The notes below the pieces were generated by a model that was given only the letters and a program-made list of their open reading frames with translations, searched no databases and had not been told where the DNA came from. From a virus, in the IMG/VR virus record IMGVR_UViG_3300035086_000030, positions 1-27,285 of that record: DNA of 27,285 nt; one strand, written 5' to 3'. Of this stretch, positions 1-27,285 are shown piece after piece. Each line of letters begins with the position of its first letter. The stretch's first letter is position 1. The translations under genes and the position numbers were made by a program.

Positions 1-807
1 GAAGTCCTTGTTGTAGGCGTGCGCCCAGCCCGCCGCGACGAGGATGTCGTACCAGTCCCGCCCGGCTGTCCCGGCTGCCTTGACCACCCGGTTGTCATCC
101 AGGACGGCAGTCCGGGCGGGCATCTGGTCCAGTGACTTCGCGACGTCGTACAGGGCCTCGCGCTCGGCGGCGGTGATCGTCGCCAGGGACCGCGGGCCGC
201 CGGACAGCATCGCCCAGGGCCTGCCGCTCGGGTGGGTGGCGCCGTTGGACGGGGCCAGCACGGTGAAGCCGCCTTCACCCCGGGTCTCGATCAGCACGAC
301 CGGCTTGGGCTTCTTCGCGCCCTTCTTAACCTCTAGGGGCGTAGGCTCCCGGGCGTCCATCTCCGCCTGCGTCTCCGGGCGCCGGGCCAGCTTGGTGTTC
401 CCGGGAACCGGCCCGTCGAGCCGGTAGCAGAAGTGCAGGCCGCCGGACGGGGTCTGCTCGGTGTACCCGGTCGTGATGCGATGCCACAAGCTGGTCAGGC
501 CGAGGAGGTTCACCTGCTCCAGGAACAAGGTCAGGTACCCCTCGGTCAGCGCGCGGCCCTCGAACTCCAGCATGTCGAGGTTGCCGGACACGGCGCCGCA
601 GACCACGCCGAAGCCTGGCGTGCTGTCATTCCACCCGCGAACCCAGGATTCTTCGGGGCGGCTGCCCTGGAACGCCTTCCAGTCGACGGCCGGGGCCTTG
701 CTGCCGTCTGCGCGGGCCGGGACCGGGCAGCCCCCGGCGGCGAGCCATTCGAGTGCTGCGTCTTTTGCGGTCTTAATCGTTGCGGTGTAGCCTTGAGGAG
801 AAGTCAT
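1..807 (-). CDS. PrimPol (bifunctional DNA primase/polymerase) N-terminal domain, cut by the left window edge
   Basis: The reading frame is open from an ATG at 807 to base 1 (269 codons) with no stop, so the C-terminus lies outside the window. I recognise the bifunctional primase/polymerase N-terminal domain: an acidic motif NLDMLEFEG, then TPSGGLHFCYR (the conserved SGGxH metal-site motif), then ETRGEGGFTVLAPS. A lysine-rich stretch (VKKGAKKPKP) precedes the third motif. The last visible residues, GRDWYDILVAAGW, match the linker that in actinophage primases leads into the D5/SF3 helicase half. Such a helicase half, without this domain, enters at the right edge (25334-27285). The start is supported by GGAAGG about 8 nt upstream. 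Role: primer synthesis for phage replication. The domain call is strong; that the two pieces are one gene is inference. Confidence 0.9.
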   Translation of the reverse strand, partial: MTSPQGYTATIKTAKDAALEWLAAGGCPVPARADGSKAPAVDWKAFQGSRPEESWVRGWNDSTPGFGVVCGAVSGNLDMLEFEGRALTEGYLTLFLEQVNLLGLTSLWHRITTGYTEQTPSGGLHFCYRLDGPVPGNTKLARRPETQAEMDAREPTPLEVKKGAKKPKPVVLIETRGEGGFTVLAPSNGATHPSGRPWAMLSGGPRSLATITAAEREALYDVAKSLDQMPARTAVLDDNRVVKAAGTAGRDWYDILVAAGWAHAYNKDF

Positions 808-840
808 TGAGCGCTTCCTTCCGAGAGTCGCTTGATGAAG

Positions 841-874
841 CGGGCCACTACCAGGACTGGCTGGTAGTGGCCCG
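841..874 (-). terminator. Perfect 14-bp stem-loop between 93-aa protein gene and primase gene
   Basis: CGGGCCACTACCAG (841-854) is perfectly complementary to 861-874, with a 6-nt loop. It lies 32 nt after the stop at 906 and before the primase ribosome-binding site. No U-tract follows on the minus strand, so it may be an actinobacterial-type terminator, an attenuator, or an mRNA-stabilising hairpin. The structure is certain; its function is not. Confidence 0.45.
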
Positions 875-905
875 GGGTCTTTCAGCCTACGCCTGCGGGC
901 TCATG

Positions 906-4080: not shown

Positions 4081-4377
4081 TTACTGCGGGCCGATCACGA
4101 TCCGCTGCGACGCCCCGAACGTGTACGGCAGCGTGTACGAGCCGGGCAGCGTGCCCGCGGCGTACAGCTGGTTCAGGGCGGCTGCGTCAGCCATCGCGGA
4201 CTTGAGGGCGCCGACGTCGGCGACGCTCAAGCCCAGCGCCTCCAGGTCGGCGTCAGACTGGCCGGACAGCCATGCCTGGTAGGCCGCCGCGTCATCCAGG
4301 GCCTTGCGCAGCGCGATGAGCCTGCTGACCGCGTTCCCGGCGATCATGGAGGCGGAGACCCCGTTGGCAGCGAACAT
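4081..4377 (-). CDS. Hypothetical virion-region protein, 98 aa
   Basis: ATG at 4377 has AAGGAG 6 nt upstream. The first two thirds are helical, including SDADLEALGLSVADVGALKSAMADAAALNQLY; the end is PGSYTLPYTFGASQRIVIGP. I recognise this as a small protein found repeatedly among the minor tail genes of actinophages, with no experimentally assigned role that I can name. Position after the fibre gene suggests a virion or assembly component. Confidence 0.78.
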   Translation of the reverse strand: MFAANGVSASMIAGNAVSRLIALRKALDDAAAYQAWLSGQSDADLEALGLSVADVGALKSAMADAAALNQLYAAGTLPGSYTLPYTFGASQRIVIGPQ

Positions 4378-14167: not shown

Positions 14168-14634
14168 TAGGCCACCTGATTCCAGCAGTCATTGATGATG
14201 ACTGGCAGTGTGATTGTCATGATCCGGTACGTGGTGCTGCCGATCGTCTCGTAGCCCGCTTGCGCCCGCAGCTGCTGGCCGCCCTCGCCGAGCAGGTCAA
14301 CGTTGCGGACGGTACCGCCGAGGGTGTAGTCCGCGCTGTAAGCCCCGAGCAGCGCCGTCGAGGCGGACATCAGCTGGGGATCGAGGTTGTCCTCGGGCTT
14401 GGTCAGCATGTTCCCGTAGATGCGCGCGTACAACACGACGTAGCCGCTGGTGGAGCTCAGGCCGGAGCCGGGCGGGAACGGGCTGATCTCCTGAATCCAC
14501 AGCGCGCAGGTCAGGCCGGACCCGGGGGCGGACTTCGGCTCGTGGGTGTTGACCCGCCGGAACTGGCCGGTGGCCGCCGCGACGGACTCCGCGGACGCGA
14601 TGAAGGCCCGGACGGCGGCGGCGTCAAAGCTCAC
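14167..14634 (-). CDS. Tail completion / tail terminator-like protein, 155 aa
   Basis: GTG at 14634 overlaps the upstream stop as GTGA. The N-terminal helix (DAAAVRAFIASAESVAAATG) followed by alternating strands, with ENP-like loops and GGQQLRAQAGYETIGS, resembles tail terminator or completion proteins. These sit between neck and tail-tube genes in siphophages, exactly as here. It would cap the tail tube and join it to the head. Assignment rests mainly on size, predicted fold and order. Confidence 0.68.
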   Translation of the reverse strand: MSFDAAAVRAFIASAESVAAATGQFRRVNTHEPKSAPGSGLTCALWIQEISPFPPGSGLSSTSGYVVLYARIYGNMLTKPEDNLDPQLMSASTALLGAYSADYTLGGTVRNVDLLGEGGQQLRAQAGYETIGSTTYRIMTITLPVIINDCWNQVA

Positions 14635-15059
14635 TCCATCCTCCTCGCGTACGGGGCGAAGGCTTCCTCAGCCAGGCGCCTGGCGTTGCGGTCCGTCTCC
14701 TGGAAGGCCAGCCGGAAGCCGTGGTATCCCTTGAACCGGGTGGTCTCGTTCCGGGAGCCGGTGCCCTCCAGCCAGGGACCGTACGTGGCGAGGTCAGTCG
14801 TGACGACCGTGTCGGTGGCCGGGTCCTCCACGATCACCGGCAGCGTGTACTTGCCCGTGACGTACGTGCGCGACTCGCGGGTCTGCCCGATGGAGCGCAG
14901 GAACCGGCCCGTGTTCTCCCTGATGTGCATGCTGAAGAGGGAGGTGACCCGCTCCTCGGCGTCGTTGGCGATGTGCTCGCGGATGGCGTTGATGCCCTCG
15001 CGCAGGGCTATCTCCGCGCGGCTATCAAACAGCGGCCCTGTCGTGGTCACGGTCTCCAT
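14631..15059 (-). CDS. Neck / minor tail protein (HK97 gp10-like), 142 aa
   Basis: ATG at 15059 follows the previous stop by one base (TGACATG). The N-terminal part is helical (SRAEIALREGINAIREHIANDAEERV). Later regions contain the pattern typical of gp10-type neck proteins, ending in TRFKGYHGFRLAFQETDR and a C-terminal helix. Order (connector, this gene, tail terminator, tail tube) supports a head-tail joining role. Family call is moderate; position is strong. Confidence 0.72.
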   Translation of the reverse strand: METVTTTGPLFDSRAEIALREGINAIREHIANDAEERVTSLFSMHIRENTGRFLRSIGQTRESRTYVTGKYTLPVIVEDPATDTVVTTDLATYGPWLEGTGSRNETTRFKGYHGFRLAFQETDRNARRLAEEAFAPYARRME

Positions 15060-15060
15060 G

Positions 15061-16125
15061 TCACACCGCCCGCTGCCGGAGCGTCCGGCCGTACGTGGCG
15101 ACGACCTTGCGCCGCAGGTCCGGCAGCGACCCGCCGGGGACCATGACCTGGCCCTCGCCGATGGTGCGGGCGTACCCGGAGGTCTTCTGGTAGACGTAGT
15201 TCAGCGCCTCGGCAATGGCCAGCTCATGCACCTCGGGCGGTATCCGGGCAACGGTCACCGGGGCCGCGTCCGCGTGGGTGGCCGCGGTGGTGCCGCCGAA
15301 GCCGCGGACTACCTTCAGGGTGCGGAAGGCGTAGACGGTAGCGCCGGAGTGCGTGGCCAGGACGGTGCCGCCCCAGGATCGCACGACCGTCAGGACGTTG
15401 CCGGTGACGGACAAGATGAGCATCATCTCGCCGTCGAGCTGAACGACCTCGCCGCTGTCGAACTTAGTGCCGTCCGTGACCGTCAGCAGGACGTCGGACG
15501 TGGCCGCGGTCCCGCAGCCGCTGCCCTGCTGGACCTGGGTCGTGCTGACCGCCGCGGTATCGGAGACCAGCATGGACTCGCTGTCCACGGTGATGACGTC
15601 CCCGGTGTCGACCAGGGAGGAGTCACTGACGGCAATCGTCGTCGCGGACGTGGAGGACACGGTCCCGACGAGGGCGCCGCCGGCCCGCGTCTGAGTCCAG
15701 TACCCGAACGTCCCGGCAATGGAGATGTTGCGCTGGATGCCTGAGCCCTGGCCGAAGGACGCGGACTTGGTGCGGTCTAGCTCCAGGTAGGTGTAGGGCG
15801 GGCTGTAGTTCGGGTGGCCCCAGAAAATCGAGGTGTTCGGGATGACCACGCCGCCGGACTTCACGACGGGGACATTCGTGGTGACGTCGGCCAGCTCGCG
15901 CTCATCGAACCACAGGCGCCAGGGGTAGGCGCGCTGGTAGTTCGGAAAGTCCCAGTAGGCGGTTTCGATGTTGTTCCAGAACCGGCGGTGCGTCAGCCGG
16001 TCGAGGTCATCGGCCGCAGCGGAGATGGCGGAGTCGACATGCCGCGCCATGTCTGGCGTCAGCGCGATGTCGGGCGCGCTCATCACGTCGTAACGCGAGG
16101 AGTAGCAGGCCCTGTATACCGCCAT
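15061..16125 (-). CDS. Head-tail connector / adaptor protein with an inserted repeat region, 354 aa
   Basis: I prefer the ATG at 16125 (MAVYRACYSSRYDVM); an in-frame GTG at 16146 would add 7 residues. The first 60 residues are helical (MARHVDSAISAAADDLDRLTHR), as in gp6-type adaptors, followed by a beta-rich part (WDFPNYQRAYPWRLWFD). The C-terminal end returns to helices (VHELAIAEALNYVYQKTSGYA). In between, residues about 155-293 hold imperfect copies of a beta unit. The position between capsid and neck genes fits a ring that connects portal and tail. Typical adaptors are shorter; the repeat insertion accounts for the extra length. Confidence 0.78.
   Translation of the reverse strand: MAVYRACYSSRYDVMSAPDIALTPDMARHVDSAISAAADDLDRLTHRRFWNNIETAYWDFPNYQRAYPWRLWFDERELADVTTNVPVVKSGGVVIPNTSIFWGHPNYSPPYTYLELDRTKSASFGQGSGIQRNISIAGTFGYWTQTRAGGALVGTVSSTSATTIAVSDSSLVDTGDVITVDSESMLVSDTAAVSTTQVQQGSGCGTAATSDVLLTVTDGTKFDSGEVVQLDGEMMLILSVTGNVLTVVRSWGGTVLATHSGATVYAFRTLKVVRGFGGTTAATHADAAPVTVARIPPEVHELAIAEALNYVYQKTSGYARTIGEGQVMVPGGSLPDLRRKVVATYGRTLRQRAV
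15247..15663 (-). repeat. Imperfect beta-repeat region inside the connector protein
   Basis: Two units share SDSSLVDTGDVITVDSESML and TDGTKFDSGEVVQLDGEMML. Two downstream pieces share VVRSWGGTVLATHSGA and VVRGFGGTTAATHADA. The layout suggests two or three copies of one domain, some partial, inserted between the N-terminal adaptor part and the C-terminal helices. Similar GD.I.id.E.M / RG..GT.A..H units appear in other phage structural proteins. Confidence 0.65.
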
Positions 16126-16209
16126 CCTGTGATCTCTTTCCGCCACTGGCCGTTGTCGTACCGGCCGGATTAGCTGGGCTTTTCAGTTGTCCCTGAGGCC
16201 AGGGTACAT

Positions 16210-16410
16210 CTACATCCCGGAATGCACGCTGACGTCCCAGTCGCGGGGGTACTGCCAGCCGTCAAACGGGCAGAACAGCACCCCGGACTCCGGCGCCTGA
16301 AGCAGCGGGGTCCCGTCGTTCGGGCAGGCCATGGGCTGAGTCGAGTCCCAGTTGTCCTTCTGGATCGCCTGCTCCCGCAAGGTGGCCAGGAGGTCCACGC
16401 CCATGACCAT
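16210..16410 (-). CDS. Zinc-ribbon protein of the connector region, 66 aa
   Basis: ATG at 16410 has AGGAGGG upstream at a good distance; a second ATG lies two codons on. The product starts with a helix (VDLLATLREQAIQKD), then CPNDGTPLLQ and CPFDGWQYPRDW, each offering one clear Cys in a CPxDG turn. This is a family I recognise next to connector genes in actinophages. With a single Cys per turn, plus Asp/His, metal binding is possible but not certain. Role in virion assembly is inferred from conserved position only. Confidence 0.78.
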   Translation of the reverse strand: MVMGVDLLATLREQAIQKDNWDSTQPMACPNDGTPLLQAPESGVLFCPFDGWQYPRDWDVSVHSGM

Positions 16411-16413
16411 GGC

Positions 16414-16776
16414 TCAGCCCTCCTGCGCCGTCAGCCGGGCTACCAGCTCCGCCTTCGGCAGGGTGCCGCTAGGACCGCTGTAAGGCACGCCACGCTCCTT
16501 GCACAAGGCGATCAGGTCCCTCGTCGCGTACGCCGAGTAATCCGGCCTGTCGTCGTCTGCGGCCTCAGCAGCAGGCTCTTCCGGAGCTGGCTCTTCCTCG
16601 GCAGGCTCCTGCACGTTCTCCTGCACGGGCAGCTGCACATCCTCCGGCACGTCCGCGCCAGGCTGGTGATTGCCGCCAGTCGTTACCTTTCCCACTGCTG
16701 CCTCCTCGAAGCACATCGGGCATGCGGGTACTGACTCCGCGATGGCCTGGCAGCCGCATGCTTGGCAGCTCCACAT
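16414..16776 (-). CDS. Zinc ribbon plus acidic linker plus SAP-like domain, 120 aa
   Basis: ATG at 16776 overlaps the upstream stop (ATGA). Residues 1-25 carry CQAC and CPMC, a zinc ribbon. Residues 35-75 are a Pro/Glu/Ala-rich acidic linker. Residues about 79-120 (YATRDLIALCKERGVPYSG, then LPKAELVARLTAQ) look like a SAP helix-extended-loop-helix domain, usually nucleic-acid-binding. This modular architecture is unusual for a gene within the head-assembly cluster. It may link DNA to the head or act as an assembly factor, but function is unknown. Confidence 0.72.
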   Translation of the reverse strand: MWSCQACGCQAIAESVPACPMCFEEAAVGKVTTGGNHQPGADVPEDVQLPVQENVQEPAEEEPAPEEPAAEAADDDRPDYSAYATRDLIALCKERGVPYSGPSGTLPKAELVARLTAQEG

Positions 16777-17015
16777 CAGTACACACGAGCAAACGATGCC
16801 AGCAGCGCATCGACCGCAGCCTGCGCGTCTGCCTCCGTTGCGTAATGCGAGCTGTTGTACTGAACAGAGCTAGTGACATCCCCGAAGTACAGGAGGACAT
16901 CGAACCCGGTCGATCCGCCATTGTCGTAAATCTGAACCTTGGCGATCCGCTCGGAGTTATACAGGATCGGCGGCCTGCCCGGTGCCTGTACGTCTGCGTC
17001 TAGCCGGAAGAACAT
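16776..17015 (-). CDS. Hypothetical protein, 79 aa
   Basis: Start at the ATG at 17015, with AGGAGG 4 nt upstream, rather than the longer frame from 17078. The product (MFFRLDADVQAPG, ILYNSERIAKVQIYDN, FDVLLYFGDVTSSVQY, then a helix EADAQAAVDALLASF) reads as an alpha/beta fold with a small sheet packed on a C-terminal helix. No cysteines, no known motif. Coupled to the zinc-ribbon/SAP gene by ATGA. Probably an accessory of the head gene cluster. Confidence 0.72.
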   Translation of the reverse strand: MFFRLDADVQAPGRPPILYNSERIAKVQIYDNGGSTGFDVLLYFGDVTSSVQYNSSHYATEADAQAAVDALLASFARVY

Positions 17016-17023
17016 CACTCCTC

Positions 17024-17530
17024 CTAAGCGGCGGTCACTACCGCGCCCGCGTCGTACGGAATGTACGTCACGGACCACGTGATGGCACCCGTGTTAGTTG
17101 CGCTGGTCGTCACCTGGATAGAACCCGCCGGAACCAGGGCCAGTCCTCCGTCATCAGCCGAAATACCGAGGTCTACTCCCGGCACGACCGCCGTCGGGGC
17201 TAGCACCACCAGTGCGGCCACTCCGCTATTCAGCGACGCAACCGCGAGCGACGACCCCAGCGCGAAGTTGATGATGGACGTAGCCGACGCCAGCGTGGCC
17301 ACCTGCGAGGACCCTCCCGTGGGCTTGTGCCCCACTGACAGGGCGCATGCCTGGTTCTGGATAGCAGTCGTGACCACGCCGGTAAGGCTGGTGACCACGA
17401 CGCGCCCGCCAGTGACCGTGAAGATATCTCCGCTGGTGCTGGCGGGCAGTGTCTTGGCCGCCCCGGTAACGAGCACGCCGTAGTTGGCCGCGAACATCGC
17501 GGTCACCTGAGCGTAGGGGCTAACTGGCAT
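17024..17530 (-). CDS. Structural accessory protein, 168 aa; paralog of the upstream 159-aa protein
   Basis: Start at the ATG at 17530, one base after the upstream stop. The apparent longer frame from 17785 is a shadow of the neighbouring gene. Shared with the upstream protein: DIFTVTGGRVVVTSLTGVVT versus DLFIVAGGEVLLTSMYGLVT, and the C-terminal GAITWSVTYIPYDAGAVVTA versus GAITWVVTYVPLTDGATLVA. Ser/Thr/Ala/Val-rich and strongly beta-predicted. Members of this family lie close to capsid genes in actinophages, which suggests capsid decoration or head-fibre proteins, but I know of no proven role. Confidence 0.78.
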   Translation of the reverse strand: MPVSPYAQVTAMFAANYGVLVTGAAKTLPASTSGDIFTVTGGRVVVTSLTGVVTTAIQNQACALSVGHKPTGGSSQVATLASATSIINFALGSSLAVASLNSGVAALVVLAPTAVVPGVDLGISADDGGLALVPAGSIQVTTSATNTGAITWSVTYIPYDAGAVVTAA

Positions 17531-17531
17531 G

Positions 17532-18011
17532 TTAGGCCGCCACCAGCGTTGCGCCGTCCGTAAGCGGCACGTAGGTAACCACCCAGGTGATGGCGCCGTC
17601 AGTGCCAGCGGAAACAGACTGGATCTTGCCCGTCGAGATGACCGCCAGCGGCAGCGCGAACGGGCTGACGGAAACGTTGGACGCGCCGGACGGCGAGGCG
17701 AGCTTCGGGGGCGCGGTCGTGGTGGCCACGCCGAATCCCAGGACGCCGCCCGCCACCGTGTCGGTGGTGCCGATGTCGGTGGCAACGCACAGCTGCGTGG
17801 CGTCGCCAGCCGTTGGGGTTACCTTCAGGTAATACGAGTTGGCAACCGTGATCGACACGGTGACAAGCCCGTACATCGAGGTGAGCAGTACCTCTCCGCC
17901 CGCGACGATGAACAGGTCCACCGTGGTCGCGGCAAGGGTACCGGTGTTCTTGCTGACCCTCGTGCCCAGCACCATCTGCCGGAGCTGACGGCCTGCTACT
18001 CCAGATGCCAT
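17532..18011 (-). CDS. Structural accessory protein, 159 aa; paralog of the downstream 168-aa protein
   Basis: ATG at 18011 has AGGGGG 7 nt upstream. A short basic N-terminal segment (GRQLRQMVLGTRVSKNTG) precedes a beta-rich body with LFIVAGGEVLLTSMYGLVTV and the C-terminal GAITWVVTYVPLTDG that it shares with its neighbour. No Cys pairs or membrane segments. As the second gene after the capsid it is probably made in quantity. A decoration or head-fibre role is likely from position and fold, not shown. Confidence 0.78.
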   Translation of the reverse strand: MASGVAGRQLRQMVLGTRVSKNTGTLAATTVDLFIVAGGEVLLTSMYGLVTVSITVANSYYLKVTPTAGDATQLCVATDIGTTDTVAGGVLGFGVATTTAPPKLASPSGASNVSVSPFALPLAVISTGKIQSVSAGTDGAITWVVTYVPLTDGATLVAA

Positions 18012-18023
18012 GACTCAGCCCCC

Positions 18024-18494
18024 TTACGCGCTCAGCTTGGCGAGGTTGGCCGGGGTCCGCTGCACTCCCAGGTCGTGCACGATCGCGGCGCCGATTCCGG
18101 AGCCGGTCACGGTGCCCTTGACGTAGGTGTAGGTGTCCGGGACCTGAGTGCCGAACAGGGTCCACACCGACGCGACAGCGGTCGTCAGGCCGGTCGTGGT
18201 GCCGTGGGTGAAGGTCGCGGCGGCGGTGATGCTCGCCTTGGCCCACACGCCCGTTCCGTCCGTCTGAAGGTTCCAGTAGACGCGGGTGATCGGCGCCCAC
18301 GCGGGGGTGAAGAACGACCCGGCCCGGTAGGTGCCGCCGAAGCTGGTAGCGATGGTCAGCGTCAGGACCGCGGTCGCGCCGGTCGTCACGAAGCTGATCG
18401 CCTGGCCTGCCGCGAGGGCAATCGCCGGGCCGCCCGTGCTGATGGGCACGATGTTGAAGACGCGGCCGAGGCCGTCGCTGGGCATTACGGGCAT
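18024..18494 (-). CDS. Probable capsid-associated structural protein, 156 aa
   Basis: ATG at 18494 has GGGAA about 5 nt upstream. Residues 1-130 are Thr/Ala/Gly-rich and beta-predicted (GQAISFVTTGATAVLTLTIA, RVYWNLQTDGTGVWAKASIT). The C-terminus is VQRTPANLAKLSA. It is the first gene after the major capsid, separated from it by a 152-bp gap with a strong hairpin. No clear similarity to the two paralogs downstream. Candidate decoration protein by position; not recognised by family. Confidence 0.72.
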   Translation of the reverse strand: MPVMPSDGLGRVFNIVPISTGGPAIALAAGQAISFVTTGATAVLTLTIATSFGGTYRAGSFFTPAWAPITRVYWNLQTDGTGVWAKASITAAATFTHGTTTGLTTAVASVWTLFGTQVPDTYTYVKGTVTGSGIGAAIVHDLGVQRTPANLAKLSA

Positions 18495-18592
18495 TGGGTT
18501 CCCGCTTTCCGTGCTGACTCAAGGTCTTGGGGCGGGGTGTCGATGCCGCCTTGCTCACTCAGCCGTGTCGGTACGGCCTACCCTGGTTGCTA

Positions 18593-18632
18593 CGCCAGGC
18601 TGGCTAGCTTCCCTCACGCTGCCAGCCTGGCG
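18593..18632 (-). terminator. Strong 12-bp hairpin after the major capsid gene
   Basis: CGCCAGGCTGGC (18593-18604) pairs perfectly with GCCAGCCTGGCG (18621-18632), with a 16-nt loop that can add three more pairs. It begins 15 nt after the capsid stop. There is no U-tract, so partial termination or 3'-end protection of capsid mRNA is as likely as full termination. The rest of the 152-bp gap (18495-18646) holds a weaker stem near 18562-18577 and no promoter that I can support. Confidence 0.5.
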
Positions 18633-18646
18633 CCACTGCACTCAGC

Positions 18647-20065
18647 TTAGCGAGTCGCCAGCTGAACGAACGGGGACAGCGTGTTCGAGCTGCCGCTATG
18701 CGGGGTCAGGGCGCTCTGAATCCAGGGGCGGCCGTCCACGCGCTCGATGATCTTGAACGCGGTCTGGTCATTCTGGAAGAATGCCTGGTCACTGGAGCTG
18801 ACCTCCACCTGCTGGCGGTCACCGATCAGGTAGTAGCTCAGGTCGACGTAGTTGATGTCGCCGGTAGTACCCAGGGTAGGAAGCTTCTCGGTGAAGATCA
18901 CCGGGCGGCCGAGGATCGTCATGGGCGGAGCCTCCGAGCCCGGCTGGCTCCATCCGCCGATCCAGACAGGGCCGCCGCCCGTGCCGACAGCCAGGGCCAT
19001 GGTCGAGAGCTGCGGGATCGTGTCGTTGTTGGCGATCCAGACAGCGTTGGACTGCGAGGTCGGCAGCATGCGGGAGTACATGTTGACGATGTTCTCCCAG
19101 AGGATCGTCTTCGTCGCCTGGCCGGACTCGGCCGAGACCGAGACGGAAGCCGGGCACGAGACGAAGCCCAGCGGGGTGCCGACGCCGGACTCGGTCATGA
19201 AGGCGATGTCCTCGAAGAAGGACAGTCCCTGCGGAACGCGGGTGTCGAAGAACGCGCTGAAGGCGGGAGCGTCGTTCAGCAGCTCGTTGGGCGTCTTGAA
19301 GAATCCCGCGAGCTTCTTGGCGACCAGGTTGACCCGGCCGAAGGTGGCCGTCGACTCAGTGAGCGAGCTGGCCTCCTCTGCCCAGTAGAACTGGATTCCG
19401 CCGAACACCGACGTCGAGTGGCTGGTGTCGTCCACGGTGGGGATCGGGACGCTCAGCGTGTTCATCGGGATGACCGACGCCCGGCTGCGGACGATGCTGT
19501 TCTCCAGGGCAAGGGTGAGCAGCTCCGAGCGCATGATCTCCGGGATCAGGTAACCGCCCGCGCCTGGCTCCTCCGAGCCGAAGCTGTTCATGAACTCGCG
19601 TACGTTGGCCAGCTTGCGCAGCAGGTCCTCGCGGTTGTGCCGGCTCGATGGCCGGGCCTCCTCGCGGATCGCGGTGCAGTACTCGCCGATGCTCGCGAAG
19701 CGGTCCTCGGCCTTGTACTTCTCCTGGAACCGGGCGCCCGGGGCTGCCCTGTTGTACGCCGCGCCACGGCCCTTGGCGACAACGGCGGTGCCGTCCACGG
19801 ACAGGCCCGGCTTGCCATCGGTGAGGGTTACCCGCGGCTGCCTGCCGTCCGGGGTCTCCCGGATCATGTCGGACAGGACCGACTGGACCTGGACCTTCAG
19901 GTCGTCGTTGAGGGTGTCCTTGTTCTTCGCGGTGAACTGGCTGGTAAAGCCGTCCACCAGCTCCTTGAGGTCCGCCCGGTTGGACAGGTCCTTGAGCCGG
20001 GCCGGGTTAGTCAGCAGCTCCACCAGGCCATCGGAGTCGGTGGGGACTGTGATCTTCGGTGCCAT
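18647..20065 (-). CDS. Major capsid protein, HK97 fold, 472 aa
   Basis: The ATG at 20065 overlaps the protease stop as TAATG, with GGAGGG 5 nt upstream. Residues 1-150 are helical and charged (LKELVDGFTSQFTAKNKDTL, REEARPSSRHNREDLLRKL), typical of a scaffold-like delta domain removed by the prohead protease. Residues about 165-472 form the HK97-type shell domain: EEPGAGGYLIPEIMRSELL, VPIPTVDD, WAEEASSLTESTATFGRVNL, then LGRPVIFTEKLPTLG and DLSYYLIGDRQ near the end. It assembles into the icosahedral head. Order portal, protease, capsid is canonical. Confidence 0.96.
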   Translation of the reverse strand: MAPKITVPTDSDGLVELLTNPARLKDLSNRADLKELVDGFTSQFTAKNKDTLNDDLKVQVQSVLSDMIRETPDGRQPRVTLTDGKPGLSVDGTAVVAKGRGAAYNRAAPGARFQEKYKAEDRFASIGEYCTAIREEARPSSRHNREDLLRKLANVREFMNSFGSEEPGAGGYLIPEIMRSELLTLALENSIVRSRASVIPMNTLSVPIPTVDDTSHSTSVFGGIQFYWAEEASSLTESTATFGRVNLVAKKLAGFFKTPNELLNDAPAFSAFFDTRVPQGLSFFEDIAFMTESGVGTPLGFVSCPASVSVSAESGQATKTILWENIVNMYSRMLPTSQSNAVWIANNDTIPQLSTMALAVGTGGGPVWIGGWSQPGSEAPPMTILGRPVIFTEKLPTLGTTGDINYVDLSYYLIGDRQQVEVSSSDQAFFQNDQTAFKIIERVDGRPWIQSALTPHSGSSNTLSPFVQLATR

Positions 20066-22868: not shown

Positions 22869-24206
22869 CTAACGCGTGTAAAACACCCGCAGGCCGGGCT
22901 TCCGTCGCATGTCCTGGTACATGACCGCGTAGCGCAGCGCATCACAGGAGTGGTCATCCTGCTTGACCGGGGCCTCGCGCTGGCTGGCTGACCCGGGCTG
23001 GCTGCGCTGGTCCCACACGTACGTGGTGACCTCCTCTTGCAGGCAGGTAGGCCGCCGGGCCTCCAGTAGCTTAGGGTCTCTCCGGGTCAGCGTGTCCTTG
23101 CAGATGACCAGCCGCGGCTTGCCGGTCGCGTCCTTTCGCAGCCGCTGCTGGACCGCTTCAATGCCGGTCTTCACGTCCTTCATGGCGGCGAGCGTGGACA
23201 TTCCCAGCTCCTTTTCCAGGATGGCACGATCACCCGCGTCATGGTCACAGATGATCCTCGACGGCGGCGCTGAGTCGTACTTAATAGCCTGGGCGACCAT
23301 CTTCGCGGCGTCCGGGACCATTATCCCGGTCTGGTAAATCTCCTTATAGACGTGCATCCGGCCGTCCGGGTCAATGGCAATCCACATCGCGACGAAAGGG
23401 TTAGTGAAGCCCCAGTCAATGGCGATGACGCGGTCCCATTCCTTCGGCGGCTTGCGCTCCGGGAAATTAGGGACGATGTGGATCGCCGGGTCGAACTCGT
23501 CGTAGATGAGGCCCTCGGCCGCGACCCACTGGCCGAGCAGGTAACGCTGGCGGCGAACGGTCGGCAGCGTGTCGAGAATGGCGAGGTAGTTCTTGCCGGC
23601 CTCGGTCCAGGCGCCATCCTGGTAGTACGCGGGATTGTCCTCGTGCCTGGAGTACAGCAGGCGGCTGCGCCCGGTGTCCGCCCGGACCTTCAGGTGGTGG
23701 GACGGGCTGCCCGGGTTGGTCAGCATGATCAGCTGCTGGTACGGCAGCACGCCGTTGCGCAGCCGGGTGATGAGCACGTCGAGGTCGTCGGGAACCGTCT
23801 CGATCGCCTCATCGACCAGGATCACGTCATACTCGGTGCTGAGAAGCTTCGTAGGGCGGTCGAGGCCACCCACCACGAGTGTTGACCCGTTCGCGTACCT
23901 GAACGCCGCAGGCTCGCTCCCAGAGCCGCCGAAGAAGGTCACGTGGTTCATCGCGATGGCCTCGACGGCGACTTTCTTCTTGTACGTCATCAGCGTCGAG
24001 GCGCTCAGCGACACGTGCGTCTTGCGGACCACCAGCGCGCGGACGCCCGGCTTGCTCATGCACAGCAGGTGCAGCTTCAGCAGCGCGGCCTGGGTCTTGC
24101 CAGTCCCGGCCGGGCCAGAGACCAGTATCTCCGCGTCTTTCGCCTTCATGAGGTCACGCGCGGCCCCGCGCAGCTCAACGCGGACGACCGTGTCAGCCGT
24201 CGTCAT
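22869..24206 (-). CDS. Terminase large subunit (ATPase-nuclease), 445 aa
   Basis: The ATG at 24206 overlaps the small-subunit gene by 14 nt. ATPase half: Walker A GPAGTGKT (residues 31-38), Walker B VILVDEA (128-134), and the coupling motif MLTNPGSP near 161. Nuclease half, RNase H-like: VIAIDWGFTNP (Asp 264), IICDHDAGD (Asp 321/323) and KQDDHSCDALRYAV (Asp cluster 417-422). All catalytic acids are present, so it appears intact. It packages DNA through the portal and cuts concatemers. No frameshift; length is typical. Confidence 0.97.
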   Translation of the reverse strand: MTTADTVVRVELRGAARDLMKAKDAEILVSGPAGTGKTQAALLKLHLLCMSKPGVRALVVRKTHVSLSASTLMTYKKKVAVEAIAMNHVTFFGGSGSEPAAFRYANGSTLVVGGLDRPTKLLSTEYDVILVDEAIETVPDDLDVLITRLRNGVLPYQQLIMLTNPGSPSHHLKVRADTGRSRLLYSRHEDNPAYYQDGAWTEAGKNYLAILDTLPTVRRQRYLLGQWVAAEGLIYDEFDPAIHIVPNFPERKPPKEWDRVIAIDWGFTNPFVAMWIAIDPDGRMHVYKEIYQTGIMVPDAAKMVAQAIKYDSAPPSRIICDHDAGDRAILEKELGMSTLAAMKDVKTGIEAVQQRLRKDATGKPRLVICKDTLTRRDPKLLEARRPTCLQEEVTTYVWDQRSQPGSASQREAPVKQDDHSCDALRYAVMYQDMRRKPGLRVFYTR

Positions 24207-25333: not shown

Positions 25334-27285
25334 TCATGAATTCGGGTAGTAGCCAGGAGGTGGCCAGACCTGTGCAACCTGGCCGTTCGAGGGGGGACCC
25401 GCGGGGTAGACAGATCTGTCTGCTTGCACAGGTTGCACAGGGTTGGGGAATTTTCCTTGAGAGATCTCCATGCGAGAAAGTTCCGTAGGCTGTGCAACCT
25501 CTGCAAGTCCCAGCTCAGAGGCCATCTTGAACCGGACCCCCTCCCACACGGTGGGCTGCTTCGGGGCCTCTCCGACCCATCCGCGGAGGTCATTTCCGGC
25601 CCAGCGCGAGAGTCCGGCGAGAGCTGTGGTCCGACGTGATTCAACGCCATTCCGGGCCGTTTCCGAGTGCTGCCCGAAGCGCTGGCCGAACGTCTCCTTC
25701 GACCACGCAGCGTGACCGTTGGCGGAGAGCCAGGCGTTGAAGCCGGTGAGCATCTCCGCGGCAATGATGCACCGGCCGGCCTCGGCGATGAGCCAGTCAC
25801 GCCAGAATCCGAAGACCCGGTCAGACTCAGCGCGCCATGCCGCGGTGTCCCGGGCGATCACCGTCGTCAGCGTGAGCGAGTGCGCCTTGTCCGCGTACCA
25901 GGCCCGCGCGCCCTCGACAGCCCAGGTGACGATCGCGTCGTGCTGCCCGTCCGCGCCGTCCTTGATACGCCCCTTCAGCTCGGGGTCGCCCGGCTTGTCC
26001 AGCGGGGAGCGCAGTAGCTCACCCGGCTTGCGGAACGTGTACTTGAACCGCAGCAGCGCCAGCCGCCGCCAGGTTCCGTGGTCGCACTCGCTGACCACCG
26101 GGTCGTAATTGGTGGCGATGAACAGGGAGTGCGACGCTGCGAAGGTCATGTTGTCCTTGTAGACCAGCCTGGCCTTGATGCGCCCGACGTCCATGATCCG
26201 CTTGATGGCCGTGATGTCGAGGGACCGGCCCTCGGTCAGCTCCTCGCCGATGAGCAGCCGCTGCCCGCGCAGGTCGGCCCGCTCCGTCGAGTGCTCGCTG
26301 CGCCCGGCCTTGTCGGAGGAGAACAGCTTGGGCGAGGCCATGTCCGCGTAGTCGCCGAGAGCGGGGACGAGCCCGTCCGTCCCGAGGCAGCCCTTGCCGT
26401 TCTCCCCGGAGCCTTGCAGTAGCGGCAGGACGCCGTCCGGGGTGGTGTGGCCGGTGATGGCCTGCCCGATCCGCCGCTGCCACCAGGACCGCTCCGGCTC
26501 GTCCAGCGCCGTCAGCGCCGCTGTCCAGTCCGGGTGCGCGAGGCCGGGCCGGTAGCTGCCCCGGGTGACCTTGGTCAGGAGCCGCCGCGGGTCGTGCGGG
26601 TAAGCCTGCCCGGTACGCAGGTCGACCACCCCGCCGGGAGTGTTGAGGATGTCAGGGTCAGTGTCGAAGTCCCCGGCCTGCCGGTAGATGCCCGGCACCC
26701 CGCGGCACAGGTCCGTGATGGCTGAGATCCGCGGCCTGGACAGCAGCTTGCCGACCGCGGCGACCGCGTCCATGTTCCCGGTAGCGACCGCGGCGCCGTG
26801 CAGGCTGATGAAGAACAGCCGGACGGCCTCGGTGACCGGGGCGTCGTCGGTGGCCGCCCATCGCTGCCCGTCCCAGGTGAGCCATCCCAGCCCTGACGCC
26901 CACAGGAAGCGCCCGTTCAGCGCCGTGGCGACCCGCTCGGCCAGGTAGGCGTCGGTAAGCCCTCCCGGGGCGGAGACGGGCCGCACGCCGTTGTCGGCAG
27001 GGGAGGCCAGCACGGCAGCGGGGTCAGCCAGGATGGCGGTGACGGCCGCCTCAGCGTCACGCAGGCGGGCCTGCTTCAGCAGCGGGTCGGCGTCCTCAGC
27101 CGCCTTGCGCGCCTGCGTGGCGGTGCCGTAGGTCTCTAGCGCATCGGCCGGGTCCATGTCCTGCTCGAAGACGGCGATGACCGCGGCCTTGGAGTAGCCG
27201 ATCCCCTCCTCGAAGTCCGTCGAGCTGGAGAAAACGTAGAAGCCCAGGTCCTCCCGGCTGCTGGCGGAGACGCCCGTTGCCTTGC
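25334..27285 (-). CDS. D5-type primase-helicase (SF3 helicase), cut by the right window edge
   Basis: The frame is open from the stop at 25334 to the window edge. The ATG at 27157 is internal, because 42 more codons upstream read as family sequence (SASSREDLGFYVFSSS, then GYSKAAVIAVFEQD). Counting from that ATG: a D5 N-terminal-like region (about 70-220), Walker A GSGENGKG (249-256), Walker B LLIGEEL (301-307), sensor FIATNYDP (346-353) and an arginine-containing GTWRRLALLRF (361-371). The usual Ser/Thr after the Walker A lysine is Gly. It is the replicative helicase half of a phage primase-helicase. The missing N-terminal PrimPol part is probably the one at 1-807. Confidence 0.93.
   Translation of the reverse strand, partial: KATGVSASSREDLGFYVFSSSTDFEEGIGYSKAAVIAVFEQDMDPADALETYGTATQARKAAEDADPLLKQARLRDAEAAVTAILADPAAVLASPADNGVRPVSAPGGLTDAYLAERVATALNGRFLWASGLGWLTWDGQRWAATDDAPVTEAVRLFFISLHGAAVATGNMDAVAAVGKLLSRPRISAITDLCRGVPGIYRQAGDFDTDPDILNTPGGVVDLRTGQAYPHDPRRLLTKVTRGSYRPGLAHPDWTAALTALDEPERSWWQRRIGQAITGHTTPDGVLPLLQGSGENGKGCLGTDGLVPALGDYADMASPKLFSSDKAGRSEHSTERADLRGQRLLIGEELTEGRSLDITAIKRIMDVGRIKARLVYKDNMTFAASHSLFIATNYDPVVSECDHGTWRRLALLRFKYTFRKPGELLRSPLDKPGDPELKGRIKDGADGQHDAIVTWAVEGARAWYADKAHSLTLTTVIARDTAAWRAESDRVFGFWRDWLIAEAGRCIIAAEMLTGFNAWLSANGHAAWSKETFGQRFGQHSETARNGVESRRTTALAGLSRWAGNDLRGWVGEAPKQPTVWEGVRFKMASELGLAEVAQPTELSRMEISQGKFPNPVQPVQADRSVYPAGPPSNGQVAQVWPPPGYYPNS

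Follow-up and report, generated by a model that had tools for sequence, protein, structure and literature searches.

Does a primase gene that appears in two halves, one at each end of a viral contig, mark the point at which a complete genome was opened, or do the halves belong to different genes on a larger molecule? We addressed this question for IMG/VR virus record IMGVR_UViG_3300035086_000030, which was analysed over its entire length of 27,285 bases and is referred to below as the window. The original prediction held that a PrimPol piece at the left edge and a helicase piece at the right edge are one gene, and that the window is essentially the whole of a ~27.3-kb circular or permuted genome. 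The parts of the gene concerned are the following.

1-807, minus strand: 5' portion of the primase gene, encoding residues 1-269 with the PrimPol domain and the beginning of the linker; truncated at the left edge, with the Pfam Prim-Pol match at about 205-747.
27095-27285, minus strand: continuation of the linker (KATGVSASSRED...YVFSSSTDFEEGIGYSK...), of the same family as the left-edge PrimPol according to a linker HMM.
26960-27094, minus strand: switch from the PrimPol-family linker to another D5 helicase clade, the probable domain-swap boundary; the linker match extends to about residue 63 and helicase matches begin at about residue 107.
25334-26959, minus strand: D5/SF3 helicase domain and C-terminus of the primase, with the stop at 25334; assigned by D5_N, Pox_D5, phrog_1156 and a tree.

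The left-edge frame comprises 269 codons, starts at an ATG at position 807 and runs off the edge at base 1, where its last residues are ILVAAGWAHAYNKDF. It matches Pfam Prim-Pol (PF09250, E = 2.3e-11) and phrog_19930 of the PHROG collection (E = 2.2e-38). It is indeed a PrimPol half that ends in the linker, although the end first quoted for it was wrong, as eight more residues (AHAYNKDF) follow GW. The right-edge frame (25334-27283) has 649 codons, enters from the right edge with its N-terminus cut away, and matches D5_N (PF08706, E = 1e-17) and Pox_D5 (PF03288, E = 1.3e-4) in Pfam. Its first two bases, GC, complete a codon and precede KATGVSASSREDLGFYVFSSSTDFEEGIGYSK; they are compatible with a glycine codon, as in the RPGK of the family, which is a weak test by itself. 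An HMM built exclusively from family linkers (51 unique) matched the start of the right piece (E = 9.5e-9, 38.2 bits) and no second window ORF above noise. Not one of 10,000 shuffled controls reached this match, the best scoring 13.8 bits. The right piece therefore opens inside the linker, as proposed, with its quoted opening corrected to [N]GC-KATGVSASSRED.

Several observations join the two pieces. In pairwise BLAST against the proteins of Arthrobacter phages Peas, RootBeer and Karkharias, residues 18-246 were covered by the left piece and residues from 264 onward of the same protein by the right piece, confirming that they are adjacent in one full-length protein of a known family. Both ORFs lie on the minus strand, in the orientation needed for joining, and have similar composition at third codon positions (GC3 of 0.89 and 0.87). 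When the ends are joined in the minus direction, the PrimPol and D5 pieces share one open frame only if 1+3n bases are added, as had been anticipated; adding no base gives 10 stops and adding two gives 13.

Used singly as queries against viral contigs, the two pieces returned no matches, and a family alignment was required to find relatives. Scanning viral contigs and bacterial genomes then yielded at least 160 related loci, and in those listed a C-terminal half nearly always follows PrimPol in the same frame. The 144 uncut PrimPol frames among them have a median length of 844 codons, and only three are shorter than 600 codons (15, 264 and 532). The frame of 532 codons (L213) is followed just downstream by a helicase match in a different frame, as after a frameshift, and two loci (L035 and L038) have an early stop in or near the PrimPol match. 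The right piece was matched in-frame in 62 of the 160 PrimPol loci listed, in the best cases from residue 1; in most of the others the C-terminal half is too distant for it to match. The agreement in family protein, strand, frame and linker bears out the prediction of one primase gene split by the window edges, and alignment shows the two pieces to be consecutive parts of one family protein. The intact gene would be a single PrimPol-D5 helicase frame of about 927-928 codons.

A complete genome could also encode PrimPol and helicase as two genes, the first terminating and the second starting within or close to the missing bases. Stand-alone helicases of about 520 codons do occur in the same clade as that of the window (L230, L274 and L282), and an ATG is available at 27157. 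This arrangement is nonetheless very unlikely, since linker homology extends in frame to the cut on either side and the gene is one frame in intact relatives.

The length of the missing stretch can be estimated from the linker. Among 141 relatives, the spacing from GW to the G of GK is 15 residues in 86 and 16 in 54, with 24 residues in one outlier that lacks the GW anchor. Eight residues of this spacing are present in the window, so that 7 or 8 codons plus one base, or 22 or 25 nt, are predicted to be absent from the record; the earlier expectation of about ten codons was slightly high. The missing bases would carry the remainder of the linker without a stop. The BLAST end points by themselves would imply a longer gap, which was rejected since the KxxGxSA motif is in register in the alignment. 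An exact 23-mer scan found no contig spanning the junction, and the two ends of the window share no direct repeat, overlap or other similarity.

To judge whether the ends are neighbours, we turned to relatives obtained by terminase and capsid searches. The window carries all of its head-tail genes on the minus strand (terminase, portal, protease, major capsid, tail, tape measure and tail fibre, from PHROG matches), and three genes serve as landmarks.

22869-24206, minus strand: terminase large subunit (phrog_2), the first gene of the collinear head-tail block; 70% identical in G001.
18647-20065, minus strand: major capsid protein (phrog_10), used as a query for finding relatives; 73% identical in G008, 66% in G001 and 64% in G013.
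4081-4377, minus strand: small gene beyond the tail block, common to G008 and G017 and marking the far side of the replication arc.

Three relatives (G001, G013 and G008) keep the gene order of the window on circular maps that were opened at other points. Exact end repeats of 127 nt, the length of a common assembly k-mer, close G001 and G013 into circles of 39,577 and 45,938 bp. In G008 (IMGVR_UViG_3300036783_000047) the end repeat is 99 nt long, apart from a single stray base at the right end, and gives a circle of 27,027 bp whose contig ends fall within the capsid gene. G008 resembles the window in its capsid (73% identity), tail protein (67%) and head-tail order, and it has a PrimPol-helicase in the same arc; unlike that of the window, this protein is of another type, with a DUF3987-like helicase, and lies on the opposite strand. 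Measured from the gene preceding the terminase to that following the tail block, the G008 arc runs continuously for 6.3 kb and includes this 743-aa PrimPol-helicase, and its counterpart in the window, counted across the ends, measures about 6.0 kb. The closure of G008 at 27,027 bp together with the matching arc is the strongest sign that the window ends are neighbours.

As expected of a complete contig, the window thus has one gene whose halves, at the two ends, agree in strand, frame and spacing, and a closed collinear relative of equal size. Against closure stands the lack of end overlap, which circular assemblies normally leave, and genome size is not conserved among the closed relatives, which reach 39.6 and 45.9 kb besides 27.0 kb. 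A fragment had in fact been suspected from the 39-46 kb relatives, an idea abandoned when G008 proved to close at 27.0 kb. We infer that the window ends adjoin each other and close the genome. The claim of an essentially whole genome is supported in this form by the split gene and the closed relative.

Two further readings bear on this point. The window might be a fragment of a larger genome with two different PrimPol-helicase genes, each edge cutting one of them; ends without overlap and the larger size of some relatives would agree with this. Such a fragment would require chance cuts within 22 or 25 nt of complementary points in the linker, on the same strand and in frame, and a collinear relative closes at 27.0 kb, which together make it highly improbable. 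A linear genome with true ends, such as cos ends, inside the primase gene would equally leave a contig that ends there with no overlap. However, relatives close or open at other map positions, and such ends normally lie near the terminase genes and not within a coding frame. The missing 22 or 25 nt also exceed the usual cohesive ends of actinophages, and we give this reading almost no credence. The preferred reading is that the linear map derives from a circular or circularly permuted DNA that would have been opened at an arbitrary point within the PrimPol-D5 linker during assembly. Splitting a gene across contig ends is an ordinary consequence of assembling such DNA. The molecule itself may be circular, or linear and circularly permuted, as the data fit both forms.

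The contents of the replication arc differ among the relatives. G001 (L133-L134), G008 (L140-L141), G013 (L137-L139) and G017 (L130-L132) share a common head-tail block and carry differing replication genes in the same arc, among them a 932-aa AAA protein in G001, another PrimPol-helicase in G008 and a helicase without PrimPol in G017.

The nearest relatives of the PrimPol piece and of the helicase piece are not the same. The PrimPol of the window is 35-38% identical to that of Arthrobacter phages Shambre1, Peas, RootBeer and Karkharias, which are of the phrog_19930 type. Like the window, the proteins of these phages have the linker GW-(15/16)-GK-xxGxSA followed by a D5 helicase in one protein. 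Unlike the window, they have a helicase of another D5 clade, and their genomes measure 39-44 kb. In a tree of helicase domains (n = 86), the window groups with L293, L230, L231 and L232 (support 100/99), and all 35 PrimPol-family helicases are separated from it by a branch with 100/100 support. From about residue 107, the right piece is 55% identical to the helicases of L230 and L293, two IMG/VR loci that are nearest to it in the tree and differ from it in having no such PrimPol or linker in the same frame. Indeed, none of the 67 loci listed from the helicase search has the window's PrimPol or linker in frame; loci were gathered by PrimPol or helicase patterns, and the same combination may exist beyond those listed. 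Microbacterium phages Isperia and OscarSo encode a DNA primase/polymerase/helicase whose helicase domain is 35-37% identical to that of the window. They differ in an N-terminal half that is not of the window's PrimPol type, in genomes of 32-33 kb and, as annotated, in another head-tail type. The window thus has the PrimPol and linker of the phrog_19930 family and not the helicase clade of that family. By sequence similarity, membership of the family is limited to PrimPol and linker, and we do not claim it for the full-length protein.

A domain swap inside the right piece would explain why the two pieces have different nearest relatives. The primase is probably the product of such a swap, combining an actinobacterial PrimPol and the linker that belongs to it with a helicase of another D5 clade, while relatives of 27 to 46 kb keep one head-tail block and exchange whole replication arcs of unrelated kinds at one position of the map. 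The switch is placed at about 26,960-27,095, in continuous sequence away from the contig ends, and this speaks against two half genes having been joined into a chimera. The same switch between families could be read as an assembly error, with the final 200-300 bases of the right end taken from the PrimPol gene of another phage and misjoined to the helicase. That misjoin would have to supply the very linker needed to complete the PrimPol at the opposite end; moreover, the frame is unbroken through the boundary, G+C is similar, and phage primases commonly exchange modules. There is accordingly very little chance that the contig is chimeric.

Taken as a genome, the window very probably represents a small tailed phage of actinobacteria that is nearly complete, with 27,285 of about 27,307 or 27,310 bp. 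It belongs to a known kind of phage, and its most distinctive point is the mosaic primase. The tape measure protein has a transglycosylase domain, and Pfam and PHROG recognised no separate endolysin among the window genes scanned. Neither an integrase nor a repressor was recognised in the window; as several small genes are without any match, this no more than hints at a lytic life style. Another sample contains a 5.6-kb contig (G016, L146, IMGVR_UViG_3300046472_000118) that is 99.3% identical over 5,347 nt and covers only positions 14173-19517 of the window. This identity places the phage species in at least two samples.

In PrimPol-D5 proteins, the D5 helicase ring unwinds DNA and the PrimPol domain lays primers. 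By analogy, the product of the split gene is most likely a phage replication protein and would serve the window's phage in this role. Two sequence elements lie in or close to the gene. A perfect-looking GC-rich hairpin (836-877, minus strand), with a 14-bp stem around GGGCCACTACCAG / CTGGTAGTGGCCC, is located ~30-60 bases upstream of the primase start; folded computationally, it has no T run after it and is a possible regulatory or replication element. At the 3' end of the primase, a TTGCACAGG / CTGTGCAA motif recurs several times within positions 25369-25500, in both orientations, and all perfect TTGCACAG matches of the window fall there; these are possibly iteron-like binding sites of a replication protein. 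A related PrimPol is also found on a 34.5-kb circular 'plasmid' (L008, Streptomyces sp. NBC_01335 plasmid unnamed2, NZ_CP108372) that has terminase, portal, capsid and tape measure genes in addition to an integrase, and is apparently a phage-plasmid or extrachromosomal prophage.

These results turn an apparent fragment into a nearly complete genome, and statements about genes missing from it rest on all but 22 or 25 nt. Complete viral contigs that are missed by overlap tests can be recognised in the same manner, from one gene split over both ends, conserved spacing at the split and a closed collinear relative.
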